Assembly (NCBI RefSeq): GCF_000332275.1
Contig: NZ_CM001776.1
Location: 1,907,268 to 1,971,267 of the forward strand
Direction of reading: 5' to 3'
Length of the DNA: 64,000 bases
Source of the DNA: Synechococcus sp. PCC 7336
GTDB taxonomy: Bacteria; Cyanobacteriota; Cyanobacteriia; Thermostichales; PCC-7336
A program made the translations under genes and the position numbers. A model generated the notes under the pieces. It worked only from the letters and a program-made list of their open reading frames with translations, was not told the origin of the DNA and made no database searches. The stretch's first letter is position 1. Every line of letters begins with the position of its first letter. Of this stretch, positions 51,297-61,256 are shown one piece after another.

Positions 51297-52970
51297 TTAT
51301 GGCAGTCGAATTTCTGCTTCCACAGTCAATCCAGCTAGGAAATTGCGATCCTCGCTAATATGAGGAAACTTCAACTGAGAATCTGGAATTCCCCGTTCCA
51401 CTTGTCTCTGACGCACAATCGCAAAACTTCCAGGTGAGAGGATTCGCAGTCGGGGAGGAGGCACTTGATCCTTTCGTTTTGAGCCGTAATACAGATTAAT
51501 TTCTTTAAGCTTGCGATCGAAGCGATCGAGAAATGCTTGAGGATCGCTGAGTTCCGCACCAGGAGCAAGTTCAATATTGACTAAATAGTGAGCTGGAAAT
51601 TCATCTTCGGACAAGGTGATGCAGAAGTCCTCCAGTAGCAAACTGAATTCCTGCTGCAGAGCTTGCATAGTTTGCGTGGCGTGAAATTCAGTTGTTTTTT
51701 CTGTGGTCGAAGAGAGCAATCCCCCTCGGCGGTGGCGAAATACCAGTAGGGGAGCTGTTCCGTAAAAGCCCACCACTTCGATCGCATCGCCGTTATCGTA
51801 TCGATAAAAGCCACTGTAGTTGGTGACGAGGATGCGGTAGTAGTCACCAATTTTGACCTCAGTGGGAAGAACTGTCTCGGGATGCTCTGACTCCCACTCA
51901 GTTTGAGGAATAAATTCAAAAAAGCCCGCCTCGATCGCCAAGATGCTGCCATCTTGGTTCAACTCGGGATAGATACTGTAGGTGCCTTCTGCTGCTGCAA
52001 AGACTGCTCCAAATCCGGGGGTATCGCCGAAGTAGTCGGGAAAGCGCTCGAAGTAGAAATCTGAGGTTCCTCCTCGTGCCGTCGCAAAGAAGGCCAAATC
52101 CGGCCAAGCCAGCTTGGGGGTGAGCCGACCTGCCGAGCTCGCGATCTGCTGCAGTTCTGCCGCACGCTTGGCTGCGGGACGACATTGCCGCTCCAATTGG
52201 GCTCGTAAGTCCGATTCTAGCGCTAACCAGTCGGCGATCGTTCCAGCTTCCAAATCTCGCATCAAGTCCTCAGCGTAGCGCTCCAAATAGTTGCAGGTGC
52301 GCAGCAACAGCATCGGGAAATTAGCTCCAATACCTCGCATCGATGGATCGCGTAAGGCAAAGAGCAGGCAGAGATAGTGACGCGCCAAGCAATCATCTGC
52401 TTTGAGGGCCTCGTAGGGGTTAGCAAAGATCTGGCTGAAGAGAAACTTGCCCATCCGCAGTACCCCCGTCCCTGCCGTCCCGTAGTCAATACCGCCACTC
52501 GTTTGTCCCGATATGTAGGTGGAATTAGTCGCTACAAACTTGCCAAACCGTCGCTGCCGCGATCGCAGGGCTTTGCTGAGAAAACCGATACTCGCCAGGT
52601 TTGCCTTGCTTAAAGACTTTTGATATCGCTCGGTGACTGGAATCATTTTTTGCTTTCCCGTCGAGCCGCTCGTTGTATTGAAATAGACGACGGGATCGGG
52701 GTTCAAAATATTGCGATCGCCACGGGCAATCCGTTCGAGATAGGGTTCGTAGAAGTGATAGGACCGAACGGGAACTTGTTGCCGAAAGCGATCGATCGTT
52801 TTAATGCTGCCAAGACCGTATTCTCGCCCTAGTTCAGTATCTTTATGGAGCTTTAAAAGTTTGAATAGATAGTTCTCTTGAGTGGCTAAAGTCTTATGCG
52901 TTTTAGCGATAAACTTATCTGCTTCACGTTCGGCGATCGCCGCTAAAGGTCTCAGCAAAATGTTGGGCAT
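51297..52970 (-). CDS. GH3-family acyl-adenylate/amido-synthetase
   Basis: 557 aa, typical GH3 length. The ATP-binding block is VVYFNTTSGSTGKQKMIPVT. Further family signatures are FARAEGTYS-like segments (here VFAAAEGTYSIYPELNQDGS) and GDYYRILVTNYSGFYRYDNG. GH3 enzymes adenylate a carboxylic acid and transfer it to an amino acid; in plants these conjugate auxin or jasmonate, while bacterial substrates are mostly unknown. The gene follows a threonine-synthase-like PLP gene by 67 bp on the same strand, so the acceptor or donor amino acid may come from that enzyme. ATG 52970 is chosen over a TTG five codons earlier. Confidence 0.87.
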   Translation of the reverse strand: MPNILLRPLAAIAEREADKFIAKTHKTLATQENYLFKLLKLHKDTELGREYGLGSIKTIDRFRQQVPVRSYHFYEPYLERIARGDRNILNPDPVVYFNTTSGSTGKQKMIPVTERYQKSLSKANLASIGFLSKALRSRQRRFGKFVATNSTYISGQTSGGIDYGTAGTGVLRMGKFLFSQIFANPYEALKADDCLARHYLCLLFALRDPSMRGIGANFPMLLLRTCNYLERYAEDLMRDLEAGTIADWLALESDLRAQLERQCRPAAKRAAELQQIASSAGRLTPKLAWPDLAFFATARGGTSDFYFERFPDYFGDTPGFGAVFAAAEGTYSIYPELNQDGSILAIEAGFFEFIPQTEWESEHPETVLPTEVKIGDYYRILVTNYSGFYRYDNGDAIEVVGFYGTAPLLVFRHRRGGLLSSTTEKTTEFHATQTMQALQQEFSLLLEDFCITLSEDEFPAHYLVNIELAPGAELSDPQAFLDRFDRKLKEINLYYGSKRKDQVPPPRLRILSPGSFAIVRQRQVERGIPDSQLKFPHISEDRNFLAGLTVEAEIRLP

Positions 52971-53037
52971 TGTTACTTGTATCAATGAACGTCAATAGCA
53001 CCAGCCAGCTTCTCGGGGATATCTGGAGAAGTTGAGA

Positions 53038-54255
53038 TTAGGCTGGAGATTTCCCATTTAAGATCTTTGTCTCCACTGGATAAGTATGACCCGAACAGTT
53101 GATCGCAACAGTTTCGTGAGACTGAATAATCCCTTTTTGAACTAGCCTTATCAGTCCTGCAAATGCAACAGCAGTGCCAGGTTCTACTGAAATGCCTTCG
53201 GTTTGGGCAAGCAAGCGCGTGGCAGCATAAGCTTCTTCATCTGAAGCCTCTTCTAAAATTCCTCCATGCTGCTCGATCGTTCTGTAGAGAACTTCATACG
53301 CTCGACCGGGATCGCCCGTCGATAATGTGGCAATCGAGGTTGTCGGTTCTGTGAGAGGAATGGCGATCGGTTGCTGCTTCCTAAACGCCGTTACCATCGG
53401 CGCACAACCAGACGATTGAATCAACCCGAGGGCAGGAATTTTCTCTACTAATCCGAGGGCGACCAGCTCTTCGAACCCCTGAGCAACTCCAATCGGCCCC
53501 GCCCCACCACTGACTGCCTGAACAAACCAGTCGGGTGACTGCCAGTTGAGCTGTTCGGCAAGCTCAAACGCCATTGTTTTCATACTTTCGGTGCCCGCAA
53601 TATATTTGACACCGCCATCGAGAAAGAGACCTTCGCGATTGGCAAACTCTGCGGCTGCAAGCTTGGCTTCGTCATAGGTTCCATTAATTCTGACAACAGT
53701 GGAACCGCAGATTTTCATCTCCCGTATTTTTTCTTCTGGCGTTAAGTTAGGGACAAAAACCCACAATTTAATTCCAGCGCGAGCGGCAAAAGCTGAGTAA
53801 GCAATCCCAACATTACCCGTTGACGAGAGAACCGCTTCAGTGATTCCCTGCTCGCGCATCATGGAAACTGCTACCGACGCTTGTCGATCTTTGAAAGACG
53901 AGGTTGGTCCCTGTCTTTCATCCTTCAGATAAAGGCGATCGAGCTTGATTTTCTGCCCCAGTTTCTCGGCATGAATTAAAGGGGTGAATCCTTCACCAAA
54001 ACTGACAACATTTTGAAGATTGGAGAGAGGTAACAGCTCGTGATATCGCCAGAGCGTGCAATCTCGGTATAATAATTGATTCTTCCAGTCAGACTGCTTT
54101 AGGGCTTGTAGATCGTACTGGGGTTTGAGAATCGAGCTGCCACAGATCGGGCAAGAGGAAATGAGTTTTTTATAAGGAGCACTATAGTCACATTGAGTGC
54201 ATTTTAATTCAATGATTTTGGCCTGCGCGATCTCATTACTCCTAAGTAATTGCAT
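53038..54255 (-). CDS. threonine synthase-like PLP enzyme with N-terminal zinc ribbon
   Basis: 405 aa. Residues about 18-40 hold CTQC and CPIC, a zinc ribbon as seen in archaeal-type threonine synthases. The fold type II PLP core shows the Lys in TSSFKDRQASVAVSMM, the phosphate loop LSSTGNVGIAYSAFAARAG and GGAGPIGVAQGFEE. It catalyses a beta/gamma elimination-replacement on an O-phospho or O-acetyl amino acid. Whether this is the housekeeping threonine synthase or a paralogue for a special amino acid is open; its neighbour is a GH3 ligase. ATG 54255 is preferred over the longer frame. Confidence 0.85.
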   Translation of the reverse strand: MQLLRSNEIAQAKIIELKCTQCDYSAPYKKLISSCPICGSSILKPQYDLQALKQSDWKNQLLYRDCTLWRYHELLPLSNLQNVVSFGEGFTPLIHAEKLGQKIKLDRLYLKDERQGPTSSFKDRQASVAVSMMREQGITEAVLSSTGNVGIAYSAFAARAGIKLWVFVPNLTPEEKIREMKICGSTVVRINGTYDEAKLAAAEFANREGLFLDGGVKYIAGTESMKTMAFELAEQLNWQSPDWFVQAVSGGAGPIGVAQGFEELVALGLVEKIPALGLIQSSGCAPMVTAFRKQQPIAIPLTEPTTSIATLSTGDPGRAYEVLYRTIEQHGGILEEASDEEAYAATRLLAQTEGISVEPGTAVAFAGLIRLVQKGIIQSHETVAINCSGHTYPVETKILNGKSPA

Positions 54256-54710
54256 AGTGCAGCCTGTTTCGTGTTTCGATGCCAATGATATCCCATAACG
54301 AATAAGGGCTACTCTAGCGTGGCATCTCAATTATTGTGACGCGATCGGGTGCTTGCAAGTACAAGTCTCAATGCGCGCACAGTTTAGTCGGGAATGGGAT
54401 TCGTCCCGGAGATAGCTTCGGCCGGGCTGGGGTAGCGCGTCCAGAAGGGGATTCTACATTCCCAGGGCGGGATCTCCTGCGATATTTTAAGGTTTTTTCC
54501 ATAAATCTCGACCTTTCCACCACTCAAACTAGCTTTCTCCAACTCAAACTAGATAGAGCTAAGCGTGTGAGCAAAATGTAAAACCGACATGCAATGATTG
54601 AAATCATACAACCCGTATAGCGTTTATCTATTCAATTCAATAGACTGTGCTCCCCATCATTGAGGGAAAGAGGTCTTGACTAGACGATACTTGGTGTATT
54701 CTGGCTCGTA
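54256..54710. other. intergenic region
   Basis: 455 bp between the divergent PLP-enzyme and Mpo1-like genes. It has AT-rich promoter-like DNA around 54590-54680. A plus-strand frame at 54336-54581 has no protein-like features. Nothing else supported. Confidence 0.5.
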
Positions 54711-55046
54711 ATGGATTTCTCGGAGATCGGCGTGAGTTACTTCCACGAGGCGAAAGCCCATTTTGTTGCCTGCCACCAACATCCAGTCAATCAAGCATTG
54801 CACCACTTGACCAACCTGCTCGCGATCGCGGCAGTTCCCCTACTGTTTTATGACTGGCGCTTAACGCTCCTCTGCCTCGTTCTGACTCAGGTGTTTGCCT
54901 TGAGCGGACATGCCTTCTTCGAGAAAAACGAACCTGCGTTTCGAAAGTATCCCGGTATGACCATCTTGGCTTCGCTATCCTGGTCTTTCGATAACTGGTT
55001 TGGCCTGCGCCAACTCTTCAATCGCCCCAACCGCGAGATCGGCTAG
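54711..55046 (+). CDS. Mpo1/DUF962-like membrane protein
   Basis: 111 aa. Two to three hydrophobic helices with conserved H and FEKN features: VACHQHPVNQALHHLTNLLA, ALSGHAFFEKNEPAFRKYPG. Yeast Mpo1 (same superfamily) is an Fe-dependent 2-hydroxy fatty acid dioxygenase in sphingolipid breakdown; bacterial members are uncharacterised. The histidines are compatible with metal binding. It lies about 2 kb upstream of the putative ceramide-type operon, which may be coincidence. Confidence 0.72.
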   Translation: MDFSEIGVSYFHEAKAHFVACHQHPVNQALHHLTNLLAIAAVPLLFYDWRLTLLCLVLTQVFALSGHAFFEKNEPAFRKYPGMTILASLSWSFDNWFGLRQLFNRPNREIG

Positions 55047-55147: not shown

Positions 55148-56551
55148 ATGTACCAAGGTTTGCCAGTGATTGATGCGGATGCCCATAAGTTGGAAAATCC
55201 GCTCGTCATGCTGGATTATTTGGAGCCGGAGTACCACGATCGCATCGGCTTAGTTATCGATAAATTAGGCGATCAAAGGGCGCGGATTGTCGACTTTAAC
55301 CCCGCAACGGGTGAAAACGACCTCGTACACCTGTTTCCCAAGCCTCAGGGACTGGGCAAAGGGGTGTTTCGCGGCTTGCACCCGGACACCACCCTGGGGG
55401 CAATGTTCAATCGCATCCGCATCGAGCATATGGATCGAGAAGGGATCGATATCCACGCTATTTTCGGCACGCTCAATCTGATCTTCTCCAGCATTCTCGA
55501 TAAGGATTTGGCGATCGCCCTCTGTCGTGCCTACAACACCTACATGGCCGATGACTGTCGAGGATACGACAATCGCCTCAAACCCGTTGGGGTAATTCCG
55601 CTCCAAGACACCGACGAAGCCGTCAAAGAAATGTATCGCTGCGTCAACGAACTCGGCATGGTCAGCGTCGGAGTCGCGCCCAACTTGCCTATTCCCCATC
55701 CCAAGGCTCCCCAGGCTTTCCCAGAAATTCGCACCTGCAAATCCATTAGCCATCCCGATTTCCGGCCCATTCTCCAAGCCGCCGTCGATCTGGATATCGG
55801 TCTGGGCATTCACGGTGCTCCTGGCTCCTCGATGGTGGGAGGCATTGCCGACCACATGGAAACCTTTGTTCTGGGTCATATTTTCGTGCAGCGCAACCAG
55901 CAGCAAATGGCTCTGGCTCGCATGGTGTTTGACGGAGCCTTCGAGCAATTCCCGACGCTGCGGGTGGGATTTTTTGAAGGGGGTTGCGGTTGGCTCCCCG
56001 ATCTAGCCCACGCCTTCCACGAGCATTGGGAAAAGCGCATCCGCGATTTCGATCCCAAGAACCCCTATAAACCCCCGCTGGTGGACTTCACCAAGCTATT
56101 GATTCAAGAGCGGGGCGGGCGCGACAGCACCAGCATCATTAGCAAAGCGAAGAACTTATTCGAGCTGTTATGGAATGCCGAGCGGGACGCCACCCAGATG
56201 GACGATTCCACCCTCTACGAGCACTACGATCTGCGCCATCGCGACCCCTTGGAGTATTTCGATCGCGGTCAAATCTTTACGTCGTTTGAGTCTGACGATC
56301 CCGCTCCGGCATACCTGCCAGTTGCGATGGGAGAGGTGGGCAAGCGTCTGGCCTGCTTCTCGGGCGATTACGGTCACTGGGATGGAGTGCTGCAAGATTG
56401 CGTCAAGAGTGCTGCAACCGCAGCCGATTACGATCGCGAGCATTTGGGCCTACTGTTGGGGGGTAATGCCCTGGCCTTTTATGGCGATCGCCTACGCCAA
56501 TCTATGCCGCAGGAACTCGAACCTGTCGCTGCAGTTGGAGCGGGGGCATAG
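55148..56551 (+). CDS. amidohydrolase-family metal-dependent hydrolase
   Basis: 467 aa. TIM-barrel amidohydrolase_2-type protein: start GLPVIDADAHKLENP (metal-site Asp/His), DIHAIFGTLNL, DIGLGIHGAPGSSMVGGIAD (His), FEGGCGWLPDLAHAFHEHW, and catalytic-Asp region FSGDYGHWDGVLQDC. Members decarboxylate or hydrolyse aromatic or fatty compounds; the substrate is unknown. ATG 55148 has AGGA upstream. The HxH of many family members is replaced by DAH. Confidence 0.85.
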   Translation: MYQGLPVIDADAHKLENPLVMLDYLEPEYHDRIGLVIDKLGDQRARIVDFNPATGENDLVHLFPKPQGLGKGVFRGLHPDTTLGAMFNRIRIEHMDREGIDIHAIFGTLNLIFSSILDKDLAIALCRAYNTYMADDCRGYDNRLKPVGVIPLQDTDEAVKEMYRCVNELGMVSVGVAPNLPIPHPKAPQAFPEIRTCKSISHPDFRPILQAAVDLDIGLGIHGAPGSSMVGGIADHMETFVLGHIFVQRNQQQMALARMVFDGAFEQFPTLRVGFFEGGCGWLPDLAHAFHEHWEKRIRDFDPKNPYKPPLVDFTKLLIQERGGRDSTSIISKAKNLFELLWNAERDATQMDDSTLYEHYDLRHRDPLEYFDRGQIFTSFESDDPAPAYLPVAMGEVGKRLACFSGDYGHWDGVLQDCVKSAATAADYDREHLGLLLGGNALAFYGDRLRQSMPQELEPVAAVGAGA

Positions 56552-57035: not shown

Positions 57036-58322
57036 GTGGAAGTTGTAGAAGAGTACATGCAAGGGCTGCACGGTAGCGGCCTCTATCCCGATAAGTTTGT
57101 TTGTCACAACAAACAAGGCAACTGGGTAGATCTAGAAGAAGCTTCCACTGGCAAGCGGCATCGGGTGCTGACCTTTTGCACCAACGATGTGTTGGGTCTG
57201 GTGCAATCAGAAGCTGTGCGCCAAGCCGCGATCGATGCCGTCCTGCAATACGGCACTTCTAACAGTTCCTGTTCGGTGTTGAGCGGTCGCATCGATCTCC
57301 ACCGACAGCTAGAAGCAGAAATTTCCGCCTTCAAGCACCTGCCCCACACCCAGCTCTTCCTCAATGCTTGGATGGCCCTTCAAGCTTTGATGGATGGCTT
57401 CTGCCATTTAGCCATCCCGATTCCCGGCTTCCGGCACACCCGCGAAACCCTGATTCTGACAGACGTGCTCAATCACGGCTGCATCGTCTCCGCCGTAGTC
57501 AATGCGGGCAATCGCTCCGGCAAGATGTTTGGCTACAGTCCCGAAGTCAGAGTTAAAGCCTATCGCCATTGCGATATGAATGATTTGGCCCGCAAACTGC
57601 GCCGCTATGCCAAACCGGGCGATCGCATTGTGGTGATTTCCGATGCCGTCTTTTCGATGGACGGAGATATCGTTCCCCTACCCGATATGCTGGATGTGTT
57701 GGAACCCTACCCGGGCAGCATGGTGGTGATGGACGAGGCTCACGCCAGTGGGGCAATTGGTCCCCAGGGGGGCGGCATCTACGATCACTTCGGCATCCAT
57801 CCCCAAGCTGTTCTCGATCGCGGCATTGTGCCCGTCATCATGACGACATTCTCGAAATTCGCCGCTTCTGCCGGGGCCGCCATTAGCAGCCATTCCAGCA
57901 ATCTGATCGACCTATTAGACGTCTCCCCCACCTCCATCGGCACCATTTCCCTACCGCCCCCCACCACCGCTGCCGCCCTCGAAAGCATCCGTCAAGTGCG
58001 CCAAAATCCCCATTTGGTAACGACACTGCAGGCCAATACTCGCTATTTGCGATCGCGTCTCGTGGAAGCAGACTTCGAAGCGATCGGCGAAACCAACGTG
58101 ATCCCGGTGCTCTTGCCCCCCGAGCTCGATCCCAAGACCTTCTCTCAGCATTTGATGGAGCAATACCAACTGTGGGTATCTCCCATTTGGTTTATCGCCA
58201 AACCCCGCCTGCGCATTACCGCTAACGCCCTCCACACCCGCGAAGAAATGGACCGGCTGGTGGGTGCCATGACCGCGACGCGGAAGCTGTTGTACAAACC
58301 GACCGTGGTTGTCTCTGCCTGA
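57036..58322 (+). CDS. alpha-oxoamine synthase (BioF/Kbl/SPT-type PLP enzyme)
   Basis: 428 aa. It condenses an amino acid with an acyl thioester and releases CO2. Motifs of fold type I oxoamine synthases: TSNSSCSVLSGRIDLHRQLE, DRIVVISDAVFSMDGDIVPL, MVVMDEAHASGAIGPQGGGI, and the Schiff-base Lys in MTTFSKFAASAGAAISS. Starts with GTG, preceded by AAGAGGAG. The substrates (serine plus acyl in SPT, alanine plus pimeloyl in BioF, glycine in Kbl) cannot be read off; there are no biotin genes nearby. The following GNAT-fold protein and reductase suggest an N-acylated amino-ketone product. Confidence 0.87.
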   Translation: MEVVEEYMQGLHGSGLYPDKFVCHNKQGNWVDLEEASTGKRHRVLTFCTNDVLGLVQSEAVRQAAIDAVLQYGTSNSSCSVLSGRIDLHRQLEAEISAFKHLPHTQLFLNAWMALQALMDGFCHLAIPIPGFRHTRETLILTDVLNHGCIVSAVVNAGNRSGKMFGYSPEVRVKAYRHCDMNDLARKLRRYAKPGDRIVVISDAVFSMDGDIVPLPDMLDVLEPYPGSMVVMDEAHASGAIGPQGGGIYDHFGIHPQAVLDRGIVPVIMTTFSKFAASAGAAISSHSSNLIDLLDVSPTSIGTISLPPPTTAAALESIRQVRQNPHLVTTLQANTRYLRSRLVEADFEAIGETNVIPVLLPPELDPKTFSQHLMEQYQLWVSPIWFIAKPRLRITANALHTREEMDRLVGAMTATRKLLYKPTVVVSA

Positions 58323-58376
58323 GCGCAAATCGCAGGCTCTCTCCCCCGATTGGCCACCTCCTCCCTCTGACTTGTC

Positions 58377-59510
58377 ATGTCTCCCCCGATCGCCGTTCCG
58401 ATTGAGCCCGTTCGCACGCCAGAGGATCTAGACGCCTTTCTCGATCTGCCTGCCAGGGTATATCGAGGCGATCGCCACTGGGTACCTGCTTTGCGCAGCA
58501 GCATCGCCAAGCAGTTTGAAGATAGCAATCCCTTTTTGCGGTACGGGCAAATGCAGCCGTTTTTAGCGCTGCTGGAGGGAAAGCCCGTGGGTCGAGTGGT
58601 AGCGTCGGTAAACGAACGCCTGAACGAACGGGAAGGCAAGACAATTGGTCTATTCGGCTTCTTTGAGTGCATTGACCAGTTAGAGGTGGCGCGGGCGCTG
58701 TTGGAGGCAGCGGCGGGCTGGTTGCGCGATCGCGGGGCGAGGCTGCTGCGGGGACCGATTGACTTTTCCACCCACAACAATTGCCTCTTTTTGGTGGAAG
58801 GGTTCGACTCGCCACCCCACGTGATGATGCCCTACAATCCGGCCTACTACCCCAGCCTGATGGCTCAGTTGGGCTGGACCGAGGCGAAAGATGCCTATGC
58901 CTACCACCTGCCGCTCGATCGCCCCCTCGACGATAAATTTGCCAAAGGCTATCGCATTGCCTGCAAGGCCGGAGTCACCTTCCGACCCATTCACCTCAAA
59001 GGGGATGCCTTTATTCGCGATTGCCGCAGCTTATACCAACTCTTCACCACCGCCTTTGTCAACAATTGGAGCTCGTCGGCTCGCACCGAAGCAGAGTTTT
59101 TAGAAGAAGCTCAGGATCTCCAAAGTCTCGTCGATCGCGATATTTTCTGGATTGCCGAGGACAAGAGCCAAATGGTGGGCTTTTTTATGGGACTGCCCGA
59201 TTACAACATCCCGTTAAAGCAGGTCAATGGCCGCTTGAACTGGCTGGGAATCCTCAAATTTCTCTGGTACCGACGTCAAATCGATCGCGCTCGCATCATT
59301 GCCATCTGTTCGTTGCCAGACTATCGCCGCAAGATGGTGCCGCTAGCTCTCATTCATCTGGGGATGACGGGGGGAACGGGCAAACGCAAGCCCTATCGCA
59401 CGGCAGAACTGTCGTGGGTGTACGAAGACAACTGGTCCTCCCGCAAAGTGATTGAAGCAACGGGGGCCACCATTTATAAAACCTATCGAATTTACGAACG
59501 AGCGGTATGA
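58377..59510 (+). CDS. GNAT-superfamily acyltransferase (bacterial ceramide synthase-like)
   Basis: 377 aa, much larger than ordinary N-acetyltransferases. Visible elements: ARVYRGDRHWVPALRSSIAK, GLFGFFECIDQLEVARALLE, AARWLRDRGARLL-like sequence (read here as AAGWLRDRGARLLRGPIDFS), FLVEGFDSPPHVMMPYNPAY and, later, WYRRQIDRARIIAICSLPDY. As I recall it, this WVPxL...GPIDxS...YNPxYY layout is that of large GNAT-like proteins found with sphingolipid genes in other bacteria. It should transfer a long acyl chain to an amine. It lies 54 bp after the oxoamine synthase and overlaps the next gene by 4 bp. Confidence 0.7.
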   Translation: MSPPIAVPIEPVRTPEDLDAFLDLPARVYRGDRHWVPALRSSIAKQFEDSNPFLRYGQMQPFLALLEGKPVGRVVASVNERLNEREGKTIGLFGFFECIDQLEVARALLEAAAGWLRDRGARLLRGPIDFSTHNNCLFLVEGFDSPPHVMMPYNPAYYPSLMAQLGWTEAKDAYAYHLPLDRPLDDKFAKGYRIACKAGVTFRPIHLKGDAFIRDCRSLYQLFTTAFVNNWSSSARTEAEFLEEAQDLQSLVDRDIFWIAEDKSQMVGFFMGLPDYNIPLKQVNGRLNWLGILKFLWYRRQIDRARIIAICSLPDYRRKMVPLALIHLGMTGGTGKRKPYRTAELSWVYEDNWSSRKVIEATGATIYKTYRIYERAV

Positions 59511-60481
59511 AAGCACTGGTGACTGGGGCAAACGGATTTACGGGCTCGCACCTGGTGAAGGCGCTGGAACGGCACGGAGCCAGTGTGGTGGGTCTGGTGC
59601 GGCGAACGAGCAACTGCGATCGCCTGAACGGCTCTGGGCTAGAGCGAGTCTACGGCGATATCGCCGATCGCGAGGCGATCGCAACCGCAATGCAGGATGT
59701 CGATACTGTCTTTCACCTCGCCGCCTATGTGGATTTGGGGCTGGTGGACGAAACGGAAATGGCCAGAGTGAATCTGGAGGGCACCCGCGCAGTACTGGAA
59801 ACAGCACAGAGCCAGCCCACTCCGCCCAGACTGCTCTACTGCAGCACCATCGGCATCTACGGCGATACTCGGGGGACCGTGGTGGATGAAGCCTTCCAAC
59901 GGCAACAGACAGATTTCTCTTCCGCTTACGATCGCACCAAATATCGCGCTCAAGAGCTGGTCGATCGCGCTGCTGCAGAGGGGCTAAAGGTTGTAAGCGT
60001 CATGCCGTCCGGCATCTTTGGCCCCGACGATCCCCACTTCGGCCCTGCCATCAAACTCTTCCTCTCCGGCTGGTTGAAGGGTTGGCCGGGGGGCGATCGC
60101 ATGACGGGTGTGGTGCATGTGGAGGATCTGGTGGAAGCGATGATTCTTGCAGTCGAACGGGGCACCCCCGGCGAGCATTACATCCTCTCCGCCAGCGAGC
60201 TGTCCTTACGGGACATGTTTGCCATTCTCAGTCGCGAAACAGGAATTCCCGTTCCTGCCGAAATTCCCCAACCGTTGGTGCGGGCGATCGGCAATATCCT
60301 CGACCCAATCGGACGCCTATTCAAGTGGAATCCGCCCCTCGGACGGGAGCGGATTCACTATCTCTACGATCGCTGTGTCAGGGTCAGTGGAGCTAAAGCC
60401 AAGCGGGAATTGGGCTGGCAGCCCCGTTCGATTGAGGCCACCCTGCAGGACATTCTCGATCAGCTTAGGTCGACCAACTAG
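59507..60481 (+). CDS. NAD(P)-dependent epimerase/dehydratase-family reductase (CerR-like)
   Basis: 324 aa extended SDR. Rossmann motif TGANGFTGSHLVKALERHGA, active-site Tyr-Lys in SSAYDRTKYRAQELV, and conserved SNV-like and GGDRMTGVVHVEDLVEAMIL blocks. The family includes dihydroflavonol reductases, 3-beta-HSD-type enzymes and the ketosphinganine/oxo-ceramide reductases of bacterial sphingolipid loci. ATG 59507 overlaps the preceding stop (ATGA). It would reduce the ketone left by the oxoamine synthase. Confidence 0.85.
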   Translation: MKALVTGANGFTGSHLVKALERHGASVVGLVRRTSNCDRLNGSGLERVYGDIADREAIATAMQDVDTVFHLAAYVDLGLVDETEMARVNLEGTRAVLETAQSQPTPPRLLYCSTIGIYGDTRGTVVDEAFQRQQTDFSSAYDRTKYRAQELVDRAAAEGLKVVSVMPSGIFGPDDPHFGPAIKLFLSGWLKGWPGGDRMTGVVHVEDLVEAMILAVERGTPGEHYILSASELSLRDMFAILSRETGIPVPAEIPQPLVRAIGNILDPIGRLFKWNPPLGRERIHYLYDRCVRVSGAKAKRELGWQPRSIEATLQDILDQLRSTN

Positions 60482-61256
60482 CCTGACGCTCTAGCGCTTC
60501 TAAATCGACAGCCCTGTATTCCATCCGACCAATTTCGCCATCTTCGAGATGCACAATCCGATCGGCAAATTCCGTAATGCGGGGATCGTGGGTCACCACC
60601 AGCACGGTGCATCCCCGTTCTTTTGCGAGGTTGTGCAAGAGGGCGATCGCCGCATGGCCGTTGTGGGAGTCGAGGGATGCCGTCGGTTCGTCTGCCATCA
60701 GAATGCAGGGGTTACCTGCAAGAGCGCGAGCGATCGCGACCCTCTGCTTTTGTCCCCCCGATAAATGACAGGGCATCAGCTGTGCTTTATCTATCAAATC
60801 CACCTGCGCCAGTAACGTCAGGGCCTGCTTGCGGGAGGCTTCCCCTTTAAGCCCATTCAGATTGAGGGCCACTTCCACATTCTCGAGCACCGAGAGGGTA
60901 GGAAACAAATTGAAGCCCTGAAACACAAATCCAATCTGCGAGCGACGAAACTCAGCCAGTTGGCGGCGAGACATTTGGGTGATATCTCGACCGAGGATGC
61001 GAACGCTGCCAGCCGTCGGCGTCAGAATGCCTGCCAAAATCGAGAGCAACGTCGTTTTGCCCGATCCCGAAGGCCCCATCAAAAACTGAATGTCTCCCTG
61101 CTGAACCTCTAAATCGATGCCTTTGAGGACCCGACAGTAGTCGTTTCCAGACCGAAACACCATCTCAATTCCACGGGCGGAAATGGCCGATAGCTGTTGG
61201 GAGGGCAGCTCGATGGAACGTTCGAGTTGAAGTGATTGTAGTTGAAGATTAGTCAT
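60465..61256 (-). CDS. DevA-type ABC exporter ATPase
   Basis: 263 aa. Walker A LMGPSGSGKTTLLSILAG, signature HLSGGQKQRVAIARALAG, Walker B CILMADEPTASLDSHN and H-loop VVTHDPRITEF. The LolD/MacB/DevA type energises a MacB-type permease with a membrane-fusion partner. In heterocystous cyanobacteria DevA exports glycolipids; here no devB/devC is adjacent. The 3' end overlaps that of the reductase gene by 17 bp (convergent). ATG 61256. Confidence 0.9.
   Translation of the reverse strand: MTNLQLQSLQLERSIELPSQQLSAISARGIEMVFRSGNDYCRVLKGIDLEVQQGDIQFLMGPSGSGKTTLLSILAGILTPTAGSVRILGRDITQMSRRQLAEFRRSQIGFVFQGFNLFPTLSVLENVEVALNLNGLKGEASRKQALTLLAQVDLIDKAQLMPCHLSGGQKQRVAIARALAGNPCILMADEPTASLDSHNGHAAIALLHNLAKERGCTVLVVTHDPRITEFADRIVHLEDGEIGRMEYRAVDLEALERQASWST

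Follow-up and report, generated by a model that had tools for sequence, protein, structure and literature searches.

We analysed a stretch of 64,000 nucleotides from the cyanobacterium Synechococcus sp. PCC 7336 (contig NZ_CM001776.1, positions 1,907,268 to 1,971,267; hereafter the window), in which three consecutive genes on the forward strand form a candidate operon for lipid synthesis. The first encodes an alpha-oxoamine synthase (AOS; 57036..58322, + strand; Aminotran_1_2, PF00155, 111 bits) from a divergent clade found almost only in cyanobacteria; the second, a tandem-GNAT acyltransferase of the bCerS family (58377..59510, + strand; Acetyltransf_1, PF00583, 28 bits); and the third, an epimerase-type short-chain dehydrogenase/reductase (SDR), presumed to be a 3-keto reductase (59507..60481, + strand; Epimerase, PF01370, 135 bits). 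The AOS gene starts with GTG, with GAGGAG just 5' of it; a gap of 54 bases separates it from the GNAT gene, which shares a 4-base ATGA overlap with the SDR gene. Coordinates and Pfam families confirm the three one-strand open reading frames (ORFs) and the overlap of the last two given in a preliminary description of this DNA, which had read the genes as Spt, bCerS and CerR of a Caulobacter-type ceramide pathway. Promoter and terminator scans yielded no more than expected by chance.

Distribution and linkage of the three genes

We searched the same 386 genomes of the cyanobacterial phylum for the GNAT, AOS and SDR, scoring the best few candidates per genome at chosen thresholds of E 1e-20, 1e-80 and 1e-70, respectively. 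Orthologues of the GNAT (at least 57% identity) and of the SDR (at least 59%) occur in 29 genomes each, and those of the AOS (at least 69%) in 28. The GNAT and SDR genome sets are identical and the AOS set lies wholly within them, one genome alone (G329) lacking the AOS; one GNAT match (G161) and one SDR match (G399) cross a stop codon. These trio genomes cover 16 family codes, and in a closer genome sample the GNAT was found at 56% identity or more in 23 of 59 genomes. AOS and GNAT genes are adjacent in 19 of 28 genomes, GNAT and SDR genes in 16 of 29, and all three in 12 of 28. Because the sets are nested or identical though all three genes adjoin in 12 genomes only, the genes travel together even when unlinked; the same nesting across 386 genomes, with adjacency in those 12, indicates that the arrangement is not due to chance. 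Synteny in other cyanobacteria, suggested earlier as a check, was thus found, both in these genomes and in a longer island described below. Nine genomes of the phylum (G314, G061, G063, G067, G070, G075, G082, G092 and G100), eight of them outside the class (Cyanobacteriia), hold only a 28–32% relative of the GNAT.

When named genomes were scanned with the AOS alignment, 80 loci were kept, at least 34 of them at 59–82% identity and the next reaching 34% at most. Among the matches listed, 32 of these 34 titles are cyanobacterial, the others being one 'Tatlockia' metagenome-assembled genome (MAG) and one gammaproteobacterial MAG (59%). Carriers among them are Leptolyngbya sp. PCC 7375, Baaleninema simplex PCC 7105, Prochloron didemni and Nostoc sp. 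WHI; carriage of the gene set by Moorea and Scytonema was not established among these matches. Within the stretch examined around each of the 34 loci, the GNAT is present in 25 and the SDR in 18; the other 46 listed loci have neither (SDR matches below 32% left out). The 'Tatlockia' contig (L103) carries all ten genes of the longer island at 60–84% identity to cyanobacterial queries and is perhaps misnamed or from a mixed bin. The gammaproteobacterial contig (L123) carries AOS, GNAT and SDR at 51–59% identity, a possible transfer or binning error.

Family membership of the three enzymes

We compared the GNAT with its homologues from the sphingolipid gene clusters of Sphingomonas, Pseudomonas and E. 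coli rather than with the Caulobacter protein. It is 26% identical to that of Sphingomonas parapaucimobilis over 99% of its length and 29% identical to those of E. coli and Pseudomonas sp. BYT-5, with E values of 2e-27 to 1e-43 and conserved blocks in the alignment. In a tree of selected rows the cyanobacterial GNATs and bCerS are joined (100/100) against five other, weakly similar cyanobacterial GNATs, and the cyanobacterial rows form a separate lineage with the gammaproteobacterial copy (99/99). The structural model (predicted local distance difference test, pLDDT, 85) best matches GNAT acetyltransferases, several of them tandem (Z 21), matches that do not indicate acyl specificity; no bCerS structure was among those matched. 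The GNAT search found no second strong bCerS-type GNAT in this genome.

A tblastn search of plasmid records with the GNAT returned 44 records, 40 with at least 80% of the query covered, and nine were opened. An AOS lies near the GNAT homologue in six of the nine places (Sphingomonas parapaucimobilis, Pseudomonas sp. BYT-5, E. coli, Aureispira, Rubrobacter and Streptomyces); the AOS of Sphingomonas parapaucimobilis is an SPT, accompanied by an acyl carrier protein (ACP) and LptFG. Roseomonas, Tunicatimonas (by annotation) and Nonomuraea have no AOS there, yet the Roseomonas place does hold LptFG-like, acyl-AMP ligase and epimerase genes; because of these three places, bCerS-family membership alone is no proof of the pathway. 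We conclude that the window GNAT belongs to the bCerS family, an assignment made in the preliminary description and borne out by its homologues inside sphingolipid clusters and its place in the tree; N-acylation of a long-chain amino ketone or base by this enzyme is putative.

Gene order can be compared with other bacteria. The AOS-GNAT-SDR order recurs on plasmids from Rubrobacter radiotolerans and Streptomyces sp. NBC_01001, where the genes overlap or follow each other closely. Unlike the window AOS, the AOS encoded there fall within the SPT clade (99/98 and 88/87 in two trees), and the GNATs are only 34–35% identical to ours. A Caulobacter paper places bacterial cerS invariably in a different operon (PMC11324152), unlike the window GNAT gene, which sits between AOS and SDR.

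Trees of 47 and 37 rows unite the window AOS with its cyanobacterial orthologues and the gammaproteobacterial copy in a clade (100/100) on a long stem; the smaller tree omits HemA and nine loosely placed, long or odd rows (L130, L132, L145, L150, L151, L154, L161, L166 and L170). The trees took in 8 of 30 cyanobacterial AOS rows and 23 of 46 low-identity loci. In both, the clade falls outside SPT, Kbl and BioF. A grouping with SPT was not obtained, also after removal of the ten rows, and approximately unbiased (AU) tests left both options: joining the clade with SPT was not rejected (p 0.445 with L038, an unassigned AOS of the same genome, and 0.217 without it), nor was joining it with Kbl (p 0.293). 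The identification as Spt therefore did not hold as a grouping, and the position of the AOS among SPT, Kbl and BioF is statistically unsettled; its deep clade is almost confined to cyanobacteria among the matches listed. A further AOS of this genome (G000:C1:112935-114059; L182:8798-10150) lies at the base of the SPT clade.

The lysine that binds pyridoxal phosphate (K274), the stacking H147, and D233, H236 and R393 align with those of SPT, Kbl, BioF and HemA and are invariant in 29 aligned rows. With these residues kept and an AOS fold modelled (pLDDT 78), the protein looks like a functioning alpha-oxoamine synthase, and a putative SPT at most. The model matches Kbl, SPT and ALAS nearly equally, and its match to a cysteate acyl-ACP transferase is a little weaker (Z 36.7 vs 39.2); with Kbl, SPT and ALAS this close together, structure comparison has no discriminating power for the AOS.

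The preliminary description had allowed for a BioF-type synthase, and a housekeeping BioF or Kbl with incidental neighbours would agree with the best NCBIfam profile of the AOS (BioF, TIGR00858, 214 bits) and with the AU test on Kbl. However, the AOS misses the cut-offs of both models (426 bits for BioF; 155 of 493 bits for Kbl, TIGR01822), and three further AOS in the genome include a BioF (454 bits) and a Kbl (637 bits), both over cut-off, besides one without assignment. Because both functions have their own genes here and the window AOS misses their cut-offs, such a role is very improbable; in addition, the AOS is restricted to 28 of the 386 genomes, all of which also have a bCerS-type GNAT.

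Beyond its orthologues, the SDR is closest by score, among the proteins compared, to another SDR of the same genome (34%), followed by that of the Streptomyces trio (36% along 233 aa). Gene position leads us to label as presumed CerR the SDRs found in the clusters of Sphingomonas, Pseudomonas and E. coli; these are 23–27% identical to the window SDR. An attempt to identify CerR by the best own-genome match failed, the window SDR ranking 4 of 8 own-genome matches to the presumed Sphingomonas CerR. The SDR tree is poorly resolved (its row L123 is a 47-aa fragment, to be disregarded) and gives no specific grouping with the presumed CerR proteins, so that the earlier equation with CerR is not supported as it stood: the SDR is not demonstrably CerR. 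HpnA is the top profile of the window SDR and of four compared SDRs, and the OleD profile is also common; from these shared profiles and its gene company, we presume that the SDR is a 3-keto reductase.

Satellite genes and the wider island

Neighbour maps of 37 of 40 stretches and of the named loci revealed a wider set of genes around the trio. In L103 and L111 ten genes stand in a row, encoding an amidohydrolase, an Mpo1-like protein, an FA_hydroxylase-family protein, GH3, a major facilitator superfamily (MFS) protein, a Rieske oxygenase, AOS, GNAT, SDR and an ATP-binding cassette (ABC) protein. The window holds four of the seven satellites. Upstream of the operon lie a GH3-family acyl-amido synthetase (51297..52985, - strand, by family profile), a threonine-synthase-like gene (53038-54330), the Mpo1-like gene (54711..55046, + strand; PF06127, 46.3 bits, cut-off 24) and, adjoining it, an amidohydrolase-2 family gene (55148..56551, + strand, by family profile). 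Convergent with the SDR gene is a DevA-like ABC transporter ATPase gene (60465..61256, - strand), its score below the model cut-off. The GH3, amidohydrolase and ABC genes of the window, taken here as part of the set, come in addition to the trio and the Mpo1-like gene described earlier.

The hydroxylase is encoded in the same genome, about 1.6 Mb from the operon (G000:C1:390473-390937), by an orthologue of 161 aa that is 71% identical to the 168-aa protein of L049; the latter was the protein scanned, and scored 54.2 bits with PF04116 (cut-off 31). Its sequence matches in the PDB up to E 1 are solely two entries of yeast Scs7, a ceramide hydroxylase, and are weak (E 0.003 and 0.009). The Rieske oxygenase was rejected as a core part of this genome's set, with only a 37% relative here.

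We compared satellite occurrence between the 29 genomes with GNAT and SDR (28 with AOS) and 30 non-trio genomes of the class. The hydroxylase is present in 26 of the 29 (at least 64% identity) and in two of the 30 controls (46–53%); GH3 at 250 bits or more in 23 and none, with weaker matches in four controls and one trio genome; the Rieske oxygenase at 57% or more in 18 and none, controls reaching 38%; and the amidohydrolase in 19 and none, the other 18 copies being 72–83% identical to that of the window. In the full set of 386 genomes an Mpo1-like match occurs in 19 of 29 trio genomes and in 25 of the 357 non-trio genomes, of which 15 belong to the class and 10 do not. When only matches above 38 bits are counted, 18 trio genomes and the same 10 from outside the class remain, and no other genome of the class does. 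Among 14 named control genomes, Caulobacter alone has such a match. The interest attached early on to the Mpo1-like neighbour was thus justified, by these counts and by its presence in the ten-gene island. Family f31 is represented by one trio genome, G338, in which both the hydroxylase and a strong GH3 are present; neither occurs in the 11 non-trio controls of that family, two of which give a weak GH3 match.

Linkage adds to this pattern. The amidohydrolase and Mpo1-like genes occur in the same 19 genomes and are neighbours in all of them, 93–317 bases apart, making the pair a candidate two-enzyme module. Hydroxylase and Mpo1-like genes adjoin in 17 of the 19; the window genome is among the two exceptions. 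Among the matches listed, the hydroxylase is found in 10 of 34 named loci, and Mpo1 with amidohydrolase in 5. The ABC gene adjoins the SDR gene in 6 of the 19 mapped stretches that hold an SDR, the window included, and lies near it in several named loci. Neither the ABC ATPase nor the permease of the window genome reaches the cut-off of its model (DevA or DevC). The hydroxylase gene and a DevC-like permease gene point away from each other (both at L183:9471-11271), and the DevA-like ATPase gene stands beside the window SDR; this is possibly a split lipid exporter.

A possible pathway for a hydroxylated ceramide-class lipid

We suggest that the operon and its satellites probably form a dedicated pathway that makes and remodels a hydroxylated ceramide-class lipid. 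From the gene content, orthology, co-occurrence and linkage observed, we infer each reaction, its substrates and its place in the sequence of steps, as well as which way the lipid is transported, as follows. The AOS would condense a long-chain acyl thioester with an amino acid (serine being the likeliest), giving a 3-keto amino lipid that the bCerS-family GNAT would N-acylate and the SDR reduce at the ketone; the FA_hydroxylase-family membrane enzyme would then hydroxylate the lipid. The amidohydrolase and Mpo1-like protein may serve as a turnover module, releasing or trimming 2-hydroxy acyl chains, a chemistry that we take to be that of the Mpo1-like protein from its family name (2-hydroxy fatty acid dioxygenase). 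GH3 could form or re-form the amide, and the DevA/DevC-like ABC exporter could move the lipid outward. The amidohydrolase is closest in the PDB to DitZ and ACMSD-type decarboxylases, and may therefore decarboxylate rather than cleave an amide.

Several observations weigh against this pathway. The window AOS scores 165, 142 and 103 bits with SPT models whose cut-offs are 640, 500 and 670; five of eight reference AOS (Sphingomonas, E. coli, Pseudomonas, Prevotella and Bacteroides) reach some SPT cut-off, and the other three (Rubrobacter, Streptomyces and Aureispira), though placed in the SPT clade, likewise miss every curated one. The AOS also lacks the G-S-R segment, carries two inserts and is four residues shorter in one loop region, and its clade stands outside SPT. 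To these we add the GNAT places without an AOS, the low rank of the SDR against the presumed CerR, and co-occurrence counts that are raw, with kinship between genomes ignored. Finally, our family scan, made on ORFs of at least 80 aa, covered nine proteins around the operon and identified no ACP or acyl-ACP synthetase among them.

The same chemistry with another amino acid would give an N-acylated amino lipid that is no true sphingolipid: of the 1-deoxy-ceramide type from alanine or glycine, or a capnine-type sulfonolipid from cysteate. The company of a hydroxylase and Mpo1 is typical of hydroxylated sphingolipids, and no result favours any particular non-serine amino acid, so we regard this as rather unlikely. 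Its appeal lies in the deep AOS clade outside SPT with altered segments, in the structural tie of Kbl, SPT and ALAS with the cysteate enzyme not far below, and in the name "(1-deoxy)Cer pathway" given to Spt, bCerS and CerR in a Black Sea study (PMC11334938).

A secreted amino-ketone product or signal of the CqsA kind, rather than a membrane lipid, is improbable. A patchy distribution (29 of 386 genomes), the MFS and ABC genes of the island and the Rieske oxygenase in 18 of 29 trio genomes would suit it, but the AOS scores just 79 bits with the CqsA-type model (cut-off 428), and its identity of 69–82% in genomes drawn from many families is higher than one would expect for a secondary metabolite. 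Nor did the nine scanned proteins include a polyketide synthase or non-ribosomal peptide synthetase.

We conclude that the gene set is real, conserved and larger than first noted, with ceramide-class chemistry likely and true sphingolipid synthesis putative; of the ceramide or sphingoid product first proposed, the chemistry probably stands, and the identity of the product is a prediction from genes. The Caulobacter/Sphingomonas ceramide pathway (Spt, bCerS/CerS, CerR, AcpR and AasR) has the same three enzyme kinds, including a GNAT of the same family. It differs in that the window AOS lies outside the SPT clade and the SDR is not specifically CerR, that neither AcpR nor AasR turned up in the scan of nine proteins at the window operon, and that the window locus and genome add hydroxylase, Mpo1, amidohydrolase and GH3 genes. 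The cyanobacterial proteins share families with yeast Scs7 and Mpo1 (PF04116 and PF06127); the hydroxylase differs from Scs7 in being bacterial, short and weakly similar in sequence (E 0.003), and the function of both families here is putative. Possibly, though we hold this with some doubt, cyanobacteria have a sphingolipid-like pathway with a new AOS class, its own hydroxylase, and Mpo1-amidohydrolase recycling that would yield fatty acids of odd chain length, matching in bacteria the hydroxylation and alpha-oxidation branch of eukaryotic sphingolipid metabolism. Such a hydroxylase and Mpo1-type module in bacteria would open the evolution of hydroxylated sphingolipid turnover to testing; our literature search on bacterial Mpo1 found nothing useful.

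The preliminary description held that sphingolipids are not a recognised cyanobacterial trait, which is too strong: two ceramide-type lipids are in print, an acetylsphingomyelin from Scytonema julianum and a cerebroside from Moorea producens, both without genes (PMC8895605). Within the open-licence PMC literature we found no genes for cyanobacterial ceramides. If our reading is true, the gene set would give these two lipids a genetic basis and name culture-collection strains for a lipid search (Leptolyngbya sp. PCC 7375 and Baaleninema simplex PCC 7105). The set occurs in a minority of cyanobacteria, and ceramide-like lipids are rarely reported from them. One study names ceramides among the lipid classes that it looked for in cyanobacteria (PMC7203895). 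Spt-like proteins have been predicted in 38 phyla in the Black Sea study; in its main text "cyanobacteri-" occurs once, within a reference (PMC11334938).

According to PMC8895605, Nostoc punctiforme yielded no sphingolipids, and Npun_R3567, the only AOS found in its genome (394 aa, 38.75% identical to Sphingobacterium SPT), made no 3-keto-dihydrosphingosine when assayed. Both this protein and the window AOS are cyanobacterial members of the AOS family; Npun_R3567 differs by its published length and similarity, from which we judged it unlikely to be the same gene. If Nostoc punctiforme lacks the gene set, its negative result would be explained. The test host, E. coli BL21(DE3) (PMC8895605), is said in another paper to carry its own spt (PMC9386255); still no 3-keto-dihydrosphingosine was seen. 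The Moorea cerebroside combines a C25 acyl chain with a C17 base (PMC6272925); these odd chains would fit an alpha-oxidation step, the lipid being known there without genes.

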